Assembly (NCBI GenBank): GCA_902826035.1
Contig: CADEDG010000011.1
Location: forward strand, 1 to 44,990
Source: an uncultured Alphaproteobacteria bacterium
Lineage (GTDB): Bacteria; Pseudomonadota; Alphaproteobacteria; Caulobacterales; Aquidulcibacteraceae
Direction: 5' to 3'
DNA: 44,990 nt
Within the stretch, counting starts at the first letter, position 1; each line of letters starts with the position of its first letter. The position numbers were made by a program, and so were the translations under genes. Of this stretch, positions 92 to 2,908 are shown piece after piece. A model generated the notes under the pieces. That model was given only the letters and a program-made list of their open reading frames with translations, ran no database searches and was not told the origin of the DNA.

Positions 92-1351
92 ATGCGTGCT
101 CGGAAGCTCGGCCTTGTAACGGCGACAGTTTTGTTGGCTTTGGGCGTGGTCGGAACGGCCTCGGCCAGCGGCGATGATGATGACGATCATTGCTATAGCA
201 GCTGCAGCGGCGGCGGGGCCATGAATGGGCAGAACGGCCTCAACGGGCAGAATGGCGCCAATGGTCAGAATGGGCTCAATGGCCAGAACGGGGCCAATGG
301 CCTCAACGGCGCCAATGGGCAAAACGGGGCCAACGGCGCGAACGGGCAAAATGGCCTCAATGGCGCAAACGGCTTGAACGGCGCAAACGGCGAAAATGGC
401 CAGAACGGCGTGAACGGCGCCAACGGATTCAATGGGGCCAATGGGGCCAACGGCTTCAACGGCGAAAACGGACAAAACGGCGTCAACGGTTTGAATGGCG
501 CAAATGGCCAAAATGGGCTGAACGGGGGCAACGGGCTCAATGGGGCCAACGGGCAAAACGGCGCCAACGGCTTCAATGGCGCAAATGGTCAAAACGGGGC
601 CAATGGCGCGAACGGACAAAACGGCCTGAATGGCGCCAACGGCGCAAATGGATTTAACGGCGAGAACGGCCAAAACGGAGCCAACGGCTTGAACGGAGCC
701 AACGGCCTGAACGGCGCTAACGGCCAGAACGGAGCCAACGGCTTGAACGGCGGCAACGGCGCTAACGGCCAGAACGGCGGCAACGGCCTGAACGGCGGCA
801 ACGGCCAGAATGGTGCTAACGGCTTGAACGGCGCTAACGGTCAAAATGGCGCTAACGGCCAGAACGGCGCCAACGGTCAAAACGGCGCCAACGGCGCCAG
901 TGGGGAAAACGGTCAGAACGGTCAGAACGGTCAAAATGGACAGAACGGACAGTCCGGCGACGATGGCCGCGACGGTCGCGATGGTCGCGACGGTCGCGCC
1001 ACGGAGGTCCCGGTTTCCACCGCTTACGCAGCGCCAACGATCGCCACCGAAGACACCTGCATGGGTTCGAGTTCGGTTGGCGCACAAGGCGTCGCGTTCG
1101 GCATCTCGGTCGGCACAACTTGGCAGGACGAGAACTGCCGCCGGCTGAAGAACTCGCGCGAATTGGCTGCGATGGGCTTCGGCCGCGCCGCAGTGGCGCT
1201 GCTGTGCGTCGATGAGGAAGTGCGTGAAGCCATGCGGATGGCTGGCAGCGTCTGCCCGGGCGAGAGTTCCGGCGGCGGCGGCTCTTCGCAGGCCCCCGCT
1301 CCACGCGGGCCCGACGAACGCGCCGACGCAACCCCAGCACGCCGCCGCTAA
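92..1351 (+). CDS. Secreted collagen-like protein with 86 Gly-X-Asn triplets
   Basis: The 419-residue product starts at ATG 92, preceded by GGGGGA with about 6 nt spacing. A Sec signal peptide (residues 1-25, cleavage likely after TASA) is followed by an acidic run and a CYSSC motif (C34, C38). Residues 46-303 are 86 uninterrupted Gly-X-Y triplets. Y is Asn in nearly all of them, X is mostly Ala, Gln or Leu, there is no Pro, and the series ends in repeated GRD. Residues 304 to about 393 form a compact domain with four Cys (DTCMG, ENCRR, LLCVD, VCPG) that is shared with the next gene. A Gly/Ser/Pro-rich tail closes the protein. There is no membrane anchor or OmpA domain. The next gene starts 18 bp downstream, so the two are probably one operon. 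Export and fold are inferred. The repeat could form a collagen triple helix or a polyglycine-II bundle. I do not recognise a named family. Confidence 0.9.
   Translation: MRARKLGLVTATVLLALGVVGTASASGDDDDDHCYSSCSGGGAMNGQNGLNGQNGANGQNGLNGQNGANGLNGANGQNGANGANGQNGLNGANGLNGANGENGQNGVNGANGFNGANGANGFNGENGQNGVNGLNGANGQNGLNGGNGLNGANGQNGANGFNGANGQNGANGANGQNGLNGANGANGFNGENGQNGANGLNGANGLNGANGQNGANGLNGGNGANGQNGGNGLNGGNGQNGANGLNGANGQNGANGQNGANGQNGANGASGENGQNGQNGQNGQNGQSGDDGRDGRDGRDGRATEVPVSTAYAAPTIATEDTCMGSSSVGAQGVAFGISVGTTWQDENCRRLKNSRELAAMGFGRAAVALLCVDEEVREAMRMAGSVCPGESSGGGGSSQAPAPRGPDERADATPARRR
227..1000 (+). repeat. In-frame 9-bp tandem repeat coding for 86 Gly-X-Asn triplets
   Basis: 774 bp of degenerate 9-bp units of the type GGC-NNN-AAC. 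Runs of identical units (for example repeated AACGGCGCCAACGGC-like blocks) suggest turnover by slippage or unequal exchange. The bias leaves the complementary strand free of stops over long stretches, producing spurious Pro/Phe-rich antisense reading frames. Confidence 0.9.
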
Positions 1352-1369
1352 GCCTCAGGACATAGTCCC

Positions 1370-2908
1370 ATGGCGCGCGTGCACACTCTGGCTCCAGTGC
1401 TGGCAAGCGTGTTGCTCAGCGCCGCGGCGATCAGCGCCGCGGACGCCGACGATACCTGCTCAAGCTATTCCTGCTCGCTCAATGGGGAACCCGGCCAGAA
1501 CGGCGCTAACGGTTCGGACGGGGCTAGCGGCTCAAATGGCGTTAACGGCGCTGACGGGATCGGCGGCGTTGATGGCGTCTCGGGAGCGCAGGGTTTCGCC
1601 GGCGCTGCTGGTTCAGTTGGTCAAAACGGCGCTATTGGCGCCAACGGGCTTTCTGGGCTCGGCGGAATGAGTGGCGCCGACGGCGTATCGGGTGCGACGG
1701 GCGCTTCCGGCATCGACGGCCTTGGCGGATTGAGCGGCTTTTTCGGAGCAAACGGCCAAAATGGATCAGGCGGAACGAACGGCCAATCTGGCTCGGATGG
1801 CGTAGCGGGCCTTCAAGGTGGCGATGGCGCAGCTGGATTTGCGGGTGCCGCCGGAGCAAACGGCTTCGCAGGCGTTGATGGAGCAACAGGCGCATCCGGC
1901 CTTGCTGGCTTTGACGGCGCGAGCGGCGGCAATGGCGCTGCGGGATCAGCAGGTTCTGCGGGTCTTGCTGGCGTGGCGGGCGCAAACGGGTTCGATGGAA
2001 GTCCAGGCGCCGACGGCGCGCTCGGGTTGGTTGGCGGCGATGGGTTGAGCGGCGCATTTGGCGCAGGCGGTCAAGCCGGCGAATTAGGTCTGGCCGGTCT
2101 TAACGGCGCCGACGGCGCTGATGGGGTCGCCGGCGCGAACGGATCGAACGGCGTTGCGGGAGCGTCCGGCCAAAGCGGCGCGTCGGGCGCCAATGGCGTT
2201 AGCGGCCACGACGGCGTGGACGGACGCGATGGTCGCGACGGCCTCGACGGCGTCGCGCGGCGAATTCCGGTGTCGACCGCTTACGCCGCGCCCCTGACTG
2301 CGTCGCAGGACACTTGCATGGGATCGCGCATGGGCGGCGTGCAAGCCGTCGGCGTCGGCGTTTCCGTCGCCAGCACCTGGCAGGACGATAATTGCAGGCG
2401 TCTGAAAAATGCCCGCCAACTCGCGGCGCTGGGCTATCAACGAGCCGCAGTGCAATTGCTTTGCGTCGATGACGAAGTTCGCCAGGCGATGTTTTTGGCT
2501 GGCACGCCCTGCCCCGCCGACGAGCCAGCTATGATCCCGGTCGTCGAGCAGCAGGCGCCGCCGCCCGAACCCCTCAACGGCTACGCAGTGTTGTTCGATT
2601 TCGATGAAGCGACGCTGAAACCTGAGTCGACACCTATCCTCGAAGAGATGCTGGCGGTCGTCCAAAGACGCCCGGAAGTGAAACTCGATATTGAAGGCCA
2701 CACCGATTCAACCGGCACGGACGCCTATAACGAGGGCCTCTCGCAACGGCGTGCGCAGACAGTGGTCAATTGGCTCGTTGCACACGGCATTTCCGGAGAC
2801 CGCATCCGCGCCGTCGGCAAGGGCGAACGCGAACCGATTACGAGCAACACCACCCGCGAAGGCCGCAGTCAAAATCGGCGCGTCGAGATTTCGCCGCGCT
2901 TGGATTGA
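1370..2908 (+). CDS. Collagen-like stalk protein with C-terminal OmpA peptidoglycan-binding domain
   Basis: The 512-residue product has a signal peptide (residues 1 to about 23) and an acidic segment with CSSYSC (C30, C35). Residues 39-296 are exactly 86 uninterrupted Gly-X-Y triplets of mixed composition (A, S, D, N, L, V), ending in GRDGRDGLDGVA. A four-Cys domain paralogous to that of the preceding protein follows (PVSTAYAAP, DTCMG, DNCRR, LLCVD). Residues about 403-512 are an OmpA C-terminal domain: FDFDEATLKPES, then the GHTDSTG and NEGLSQRRAQ peptidoglycan-contact region. OmpA-like domains bind meso-diaminopimelate of peptidoglycan; no beta-barrel is present. The likely role is a periplasmic or envelope stalk fixed to the wall, co-expressed with the unanchored partner upstream. 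AGGA lies 9 nt before ATG 1370. Confidence 0.92.
   Translation: MARVHTLAPVLASVLLSAAAISAADADDTCSSYSCSLNGEPGQNGANGSDGASGSNGVNGADGIGGVDGVSGAQGFAGAAGSVGQNGAIGANGLSGLGGMSGADGVSGATGASGIDGLGGLSGFFGANGQNGSGGTNGQSGSDGVAGLQGGDGAAGFAGAAGANGFAGVDGATGASGLAGFDGASGGNGAAGSAGSAGLAGVAGANGFDGSPGADGALGLVGGDGLSGAFGAGGQAGELGLAGLNGADGADGVAGANGSNGVAGASGQSGASGANGVSGHDGVDGRDGRDGLDGVARRIPVSTAYAAPLTASQDTCMGSRMGGVQAVGVGVSVASTWQDDNCRRLKNARQLAALGYQRAAVQLLCVDDEVRQAMFLAGTPCPADEPAMIPVVEQQAPPPEPLNGYAVLFDFDEATLKPESTPILEEMLAVVQRRPEVKLDIEGHTDSTGTDAYNEGLSQRRAQTVVNWLVAHGISGDRIRAVGKGEREPITSNTTREGRSQNRRVEISPRLD
1484..2257 (+). repeat. Coding repeat of 86 mixed Gly-X-Y triplets
   Basis: 774 bp, exactly the same length as the repeat in the upstream gene, but far more diverse at both codon and residue level. 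Glycine occupies every third position without interruption. The only prolines are in the first triplet (GEP) and one GSP. Confidence 0.9.

Follow-up and report, generated by a model that had tools for sequence, protein, structure and literature searches.

Contig CADEDG010000011.1 of an uncultured Alphaproteobacteria bacterium (assembly GCA_902826035.1; Caulobacterales, Aquidulcibacteraceae) begins with two adjacent genes, A and B, which encode collagen-like proteins and are the subject of this analysis; the window refers to the whole stretch of DNA analyzed, 44,990 nucleotides in length. Gene A (positions 92 to 1351, + strand) encodes a predicted secreted chain of 419 amino acids (aa) that is made up of a signal peptide, an acidic cap with a CX3C motif, a collagen run of Gly-X-Asn triplets (227 to 1000, +), and a C-terminal domain with four cysteines (995 to 1270, +). 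Gene B (1370 to 2908, +) encodes a predicted secreted chain of 512 aa with a signal peptide, an acidic cap with a CX4C motif, a run of mixed Gly-X-Y triplets (1484 to 2257, +), a four-Cys domain (2252 to 2527, +), and an OmpA peptidoglycan-binding domain (2591 to 2878, +). Both signal peptides were read from the sequence, as was the gap of 18 bases between the genes (1352 to 1369, +), which has AGGA ahead of B. Given this head-to-tail order and short gap, A and B are likely carried on one transcript; a promoter and terminator scan of locus L030 gave no signal above chance.

A preliminary description of this DNA had placed 86 uninterrupted Gly-X-Y triplets in each chain, and a recount returns exactly these numbers and positions (residues 46-303 of A and 39-296 of B), with Gly at every third position in 86/86 triplets of both chains. 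The other structural features it listed are present as well. Each N-terminal cap contains two cysteines (C34 and C38 in A, C30 and C35 in B), the runs close on a shared motif, which reads GRDGRDGRDGRA in A and GRDGRDGLDGVA in B, and the four-Cys domains are homologous, being 62% identical to each other. The domain cysteines (323/349/372/388 in A, 316/342/365/381 in B) have identical spacing, and 18 aa separate the end of the run from the first domain Cys motif in both chains. Both proteins match the Pfam Collagen family PF01391 above its cut-off of 27.2 bits, A with 125.3 bits (E 7.6e-37) and B with 110.2 bits (E 4e-32). The strong difference in composition was also borne out, as Asn occupies Y in 79/86 triplets of A (92%) vs 16/86 of B. 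Of the 172 X/Y residues in each run, A has no Pro and no Lys, and the mixed run of B has 2 Pro, 19 Asp, and no Lys.

Two features were absent from the preliminary description, the OmpA domain of B and the tandem array that makes up A at the DNA level. Its periods are nested and range from 9 to 81 bases, and 13 of the 15 rows reported by Tandem Repeats Finder fall inside A (217-998); the two rows that fall in B are weak and lie close to where its run starts and stops. Because A is repetitive and prone to slippage and B hardly so, the length of A would be expected to shift more readily than that of B.

The OmpA domain of B (residues 408-503) is a full-length match to PF00691 (E 2.5e-25). It is also matched by the peptidoglycan-binding domain of OprF, both by sequence (9.8e-24) and by predicted fold (3.2e-11, with a target-normalized template-modeling score, TMt, of 0.82). 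The GHTDS..LSQRRA motif of B aligns with OprF, placing D446 in GHTD and R460/R461 in LSQRRA, which we take to be the Asp and Arg that such domains conserve for binding peptidoglycan. An AlphaFold model of the four-Cys and OmpA domains of B has a mean predicted local distance difference test score (pLDDT) of 80.8 and a predicted template-modeling score (pTM) of 0.56, and when this model was searched against the PDB the best 50 of 214 rows were all OmpA-type domains. B is thus like other OmpA/Pal proteins (PF00691) in its full-length domain and in the motif shared with OprF, but unlike them in that the domain terminates a collagen chain rather than accompanying a β-barrel or a lipoprotein. This domain is predicted to fasten B to peptidoglycan. 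No anchor was seen on A; only B bears OmpA.

The four-Cys domain occurs in 15 of 30 genomes of the genus, the window's genome included, at 21 places. Across 398 genomes sampled from the order, it was confined to this one genus and to the same 15 genomes. A scan of genome contigs gave 40 loci. Some belong to close relatives and some to other alphaproteobacteria, and the more divergent copies come from marine bins with mixed labels and look like phage contigs; the collagen members among the 40 were those of genomes G029, G020, and G008. Pfam collagen matches above cut-off were found in 5/30 genomes of the genus, and every one sits in a gene of the four-Cys family, including the Gly-Asn-Asn run of another gene in genome G003. 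No further A-B pairs were found outside the genus in scans of 60 genomes of the family and 398 of the order, and a third protein search added 6 more proteins, none with a listed collagen domain.

Adjacent A-B pairs are present in four genomes, with A/B triplet counts of 86/86 in the window, 81/84 in G029, 68/68 in G020, and 28/0 in G003. The A chain of G020 opens with the triplet Gly-Gly-Gly, and its count is 67 if this is dropped. From genome G008 comes an A chain with some 70 triplets, located where a contig ends; its first triplet is Gly-Ser-Gly and its last lies at an N gap. This collagen stands just upstream of a four-Cys domain with the frame broken by the gap, and its B was not found in a genome that is 57% complete. 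Metagenomic B chains with unbroken runs have 83, 84, and 67 triplets. In eight chains, with 592 triplets in total, the run extends from the cap to the domain without interruption, and the step from run to domain Cys is 18 aa in 8/8 chains that have both run and domain. In two of the long pairs both chains have cap cysteines, and in the third both chains lack them; they are also absent from a lone A-like chain of G020. The window and G029 share a neighborhood, as do G020 and G008, while the window and G020 have a few more distant genes in common. The B chains of G020 and the window are 55% identical over 204 aa, so the genome with the 68/68 pair is not a close one.

In the metagenomic protein P0002 (437 aa), four-Cys domains of both the A and the B type are joined with OmpA in a single chain; this speaks for a pairing of A and B, though the protein may be a gene fusion or a sequence error. 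Some relatives lacking collagen have Asn-rich stretches (L033 7022-8482, L070 5052-6155, L080 5458-6435), some with 14 to 16 Gly-Asn-Asn-like triplets, and it is possible that these are intermediate between an Asn-rich spacer and collagen. The window's B is present in the protein database, and A is not among the 23 matches obtained with A as query; A-type genes may have been overlooked by gene callers, perhaps through an antisense open frame of 362 aa (2-1087, - strand), or the word search may have failed.

The preliminary description read the equal lengths as a register under selection, and it proposed that triplet counts be compared in related pairs. The counts of the orthologous pairs are not unrelated. 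What stands of the proposal is the tendency, as 81/84 and 68/68 join 86/86; what does not stand is strict equality, which 81/84 and 28/0 show to be no rule among the four pairs available. Over the three long pairs the summed A-B difference is 3 triplets, with two exact matches and one near match. This sum has a P of 0.007 when lengths are drawn from pools of the observed long chains (A 86, 81, 68, 91; B 86, 84, 83, 68, 67, 76, a broken metagenomic chain being entered as 76) and of 0.001 when they are drawn uniformly from 60-95, and the corresponding P values for at least two exact matches of three are 0.019 and 0.002. The matched lengths are suggestive of more than chance and are not proof of it. 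An alignment of the B chains of the window and G029 contains 14 triplet gaps with a net change of 2, meaning that triplets turn over while the total length stays near. In a tree of 45 four-Cys domains the A-types form one group of 7 rows (support 87/58; its 6-row fork 98/74) with the B-types outside, and the split between A and B domains appears, with moderate confidence, to be older than these species. The 68/68 match would then be no recent copy, and recent duplication was rejected on this ground as the source of equal length.

We propose that the related four-Cys domains of A and B bring the two chains together as a single rod, which the OmpA domain of B is predicted to hold to peptidoglycan, and we give this reading a probability of roughly 0.45. 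The signal peptides would translocate both chains, and assembly would begin in register at the four-Cys end, where the step from run to Cys is constant at 18 aa in eight chains. A mixed triple helix of 2:1 or 1:2 composition would follow, so that A and B form a single heterotypic helix. Since the ends of such a helix must meet, the two lengths would be held together despite the gain and loss of single triplets, and the cap cysteines would form disulfides. The length of about 75 nm put forward earlier is correct as arithmetic (0.29 nm per residue gives 74.8 nm). The periplasm is 20-30 nm thick, so a rod of this length bound to peptidoglycan would not fit across it and would need to lie along the wall, presumably within the periplasm. 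A 75-nm rod crossing the envelope was considered and set aside, as B terminates in a wall-binding domain and no outer-membrane export part was seen in A or B by Pfam and NCBIfam (the rest of the genome was not searched).

Several observations weigh against this proposal. The stability of a triple helix is doubtful with chains that are almost free of proline and with Y in A 92% Asn, and the AlphaFold prediction for A (six rows) has a mean pLDDT of 39.5 with no confident fold, favoring neither a bundle nor a rod. Next to no Pro with Asn in Y also fits neither the E. coli phage collagens nor the Gram-positive collagens as described in PMC3368898. Among the relatives, 81/84 is a near match and not equality, and in the 28/0 pair of G003 the B protein has four-Cys and OmpA domains without collagen while A keeps its 28 triplets; here A has cap cysteines and B does not. 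The lone A-like gene of G020 has 91 triplets and no B downstream, and the run of one metagenomic B chain, P0006 (the chain entered above as 76), is interrupted into 45 + 30 triplets. On the side of the statistics, a permutation test gives 1/6, the floor for three pairs, and 1/24 when the fourth pair is added. The pools for the P values were chosen by us, include the tested pairs, and exclude short chains (A 28 and 36; B 23 and 0). The pairs are also not fully independent, given the close kinship of the window and G029.

The best placed of the other explanations, though an unlikely one, is that each chain trimerizes only with itself and that the resulting A3 and B3 lie side by side or are bound through their end domains, with the lengths reflecting a common span and not a common helix. 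That A retains a run where B has none, that an A-like gene can stand alone, and that A and B are strongly unlike in composition within every long pair are all what separate rods would give, but A shows no anchor of its own, and cap cysteines and length vary together in the long pairs, few as they are, in the way a mixed helix would produce. Coincidence combined with shared ancestry, in which both runs drift and the two exact matches arose by chance, is improbable. There are only three long pairs, one in six permutations does as well, the window and G029 represent the same syntenic locus, and the match in G020 is no longer exact (A 67) without its Gly-Gly-Gly; against this stand the low P values for two exact matches under both sets of lengths and the distance of the 68/68 genome from the window. 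Least probable of all is that the runs are not triple helices and that each chain instead folds by itself into a bundle of polyglycine/polyproline II helices, an arrangement known from snow flea antifreeze protein and Obg (Gly-rich helical bundles of this kind are described in PMC8409303). In its favor are the near lack of Pro, the absence of Lys, the Ala-rich X positions, and a super-period above shuffles in 3/4 A chains (5 triplets in the A of G020, 2 in the A of G029, and 6 in the lone A-like chain), which DNA repeats could also cause. It is countered by 86 triplets without a break where turns would be required, by 0/5 B chains with such a super-period, and by an AlphaFold prediction for A that shows no bundle, with low confidence throughout.

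Set against known collagen-like systems, A and B resemble the Scl1/Scl2 and Lcl type (PF01391) in having an uninterrupted Gly-X-Y run flanked by non-collagen end domains. They differ in being two unlike chains in tandem, nearly free of proline, with Gly-X-Asn in A and an OmpA anchor on B. The NCBIfam models for Scl2 and Lcl scored A at 127 of 325 and 111.5 of 500, far under the cut-off, and no LPXTG motif is present in A or B. In the E. coli prophage collagens EPclA and EPclP, according to PMC3368898, the C-terminal cap domain is a trimerization module, and Pro at near half of the X positions together with high charge offsets the missing hydroxyproline; Gram-positive collagens are described there as having less Pro and charge, their X positions holding Ala and their Y positions Gln or Thr. 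What A and B would share with EPclA/EPclP is a collagen rod with a C-terminal cap domain, but they are a set of two chains, contain hardly any Pro, and carry a cap matching phrog_20531. Neither chain shows the Pro-rich X and charged X/Y positions of the EPclP type (of the 172 X/Y residues in each, Pro makes up none in A and 2 in B, and Lys is absent from both).

Bacterial collagens have been described as built from a single chain type, and no natural heterotypic pair from bacteria was found in the literature searched, which mostly did not extend to subscription papers. If co-assembly is correct, the A/B pair would be a natural bacterial heterotypic collagen. Two unlike chains of matched length encoded together, as such a collagen would require, are found at 86/86 and in the relatives at 81/84 and 68/68, but not at 28/0. 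The matched pair would offer a genetically simple system for studying how two different chains find their partner and set their register in the absence of hydroxyproline; for recombinant heterotrimers, according to one review, stoichiometry and stagger pose problems. The pair would also join collagen to a peptidoglycan anchor and connect the cap with an abundant family of marine phage proteins without known function. A fuller version of the proposal is more tentative than its core. Here a Gly-X-Asn chain and a mixed chain would zip into one triple helix from a cap shared with marine phages, would be matched in length by co-evolution, and would be fixed to the wall by one chain, and the helix might be stabilized by hydroxylated Asn, made by an Asp/Asn hydroxylase of the same genome.

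A gene for such an enzyme lies elsewhere in the window (27345-28643, +), where tetratricopeptide repeats (TPR) are joined to an Asp/Asn β-hydroxylase domain (PF05118, 5.5e-43); it could modify Gly-X-Asn, as a weak lead. Long TPR-type PF05118 matches (E <1e-50) occur in 8/30 genomes of the genus, including all 3 with a long pair (P 0.014, uncorrected). Any PF05118 match occurs in 18/30 (P 0.11 with G008 counted). On these values the hydroxylase was rejected as a dedicated partner of the collagen pair.

The four-Cys domain has no match in Pfam or NCBIfam. Both chains match phrog_20531, A with 1.6e-6 and B with 1e-8, over stretches that include part of the run. A tblastn search with the B domain alone found 13 records of a phage collection at E ≤0.01, including Achromobacter phage JWAlpha (44.8% identity to the B domain) and several pelagiphages (46.9% for HTVC023P). 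The domain is predicted by AlphaFold to fold as a β-hairpin and three helices, and its four cysteines are invariant over 44 aligned rows. Row L097, which has the same domain, is 38% identical to the B domain and 42% to the A domain. The top match among viral fold models is an unnamed protein with 60% identity over 92 columns, and the viral matches carry no function. In IMG/VR the domain is encoded in at least 598 loci (598 of 600 among the pattern matches listed). The phage proteins, those of pelagiphages and JWAlpha among them, are like A and B in having the same domain with a spacer before it, usually rich in Ser, Thr, and Asn (median fraction 0.69 over 159 copies). They are unlike A and B in that 0/159 have more than three Gly-X-Y triplets in succession, 0/159 match OmpA, and 77 of the 156 copies that are complete at the C-terminus terminate in a hydrophobic tail.

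At the viral loci (L109-L267), a second gene with a signal-peptide-like start follows the four-Cys gene in 84/159 cases, often as its immediate neighbor and at a median distance of 37 bases, and a gene resembling a membrane coiled-coil protein lies further along in 85/159. Two pelagiphage genes immediately downstream of the four-Cys gene have no PHROG match. The four-Cys gene and its neighbors perhaps form an undescribed secreted cassette of marine phages. Phage-type copies of the domain also occur on genome contigs (L085-L105) in metagenome-assembled genomes labeled Woesearchaeota, Flavobacteriaceae, SAR86, Trichodesmium, and others, and these are probably phage contigs misbinned into such genomes.

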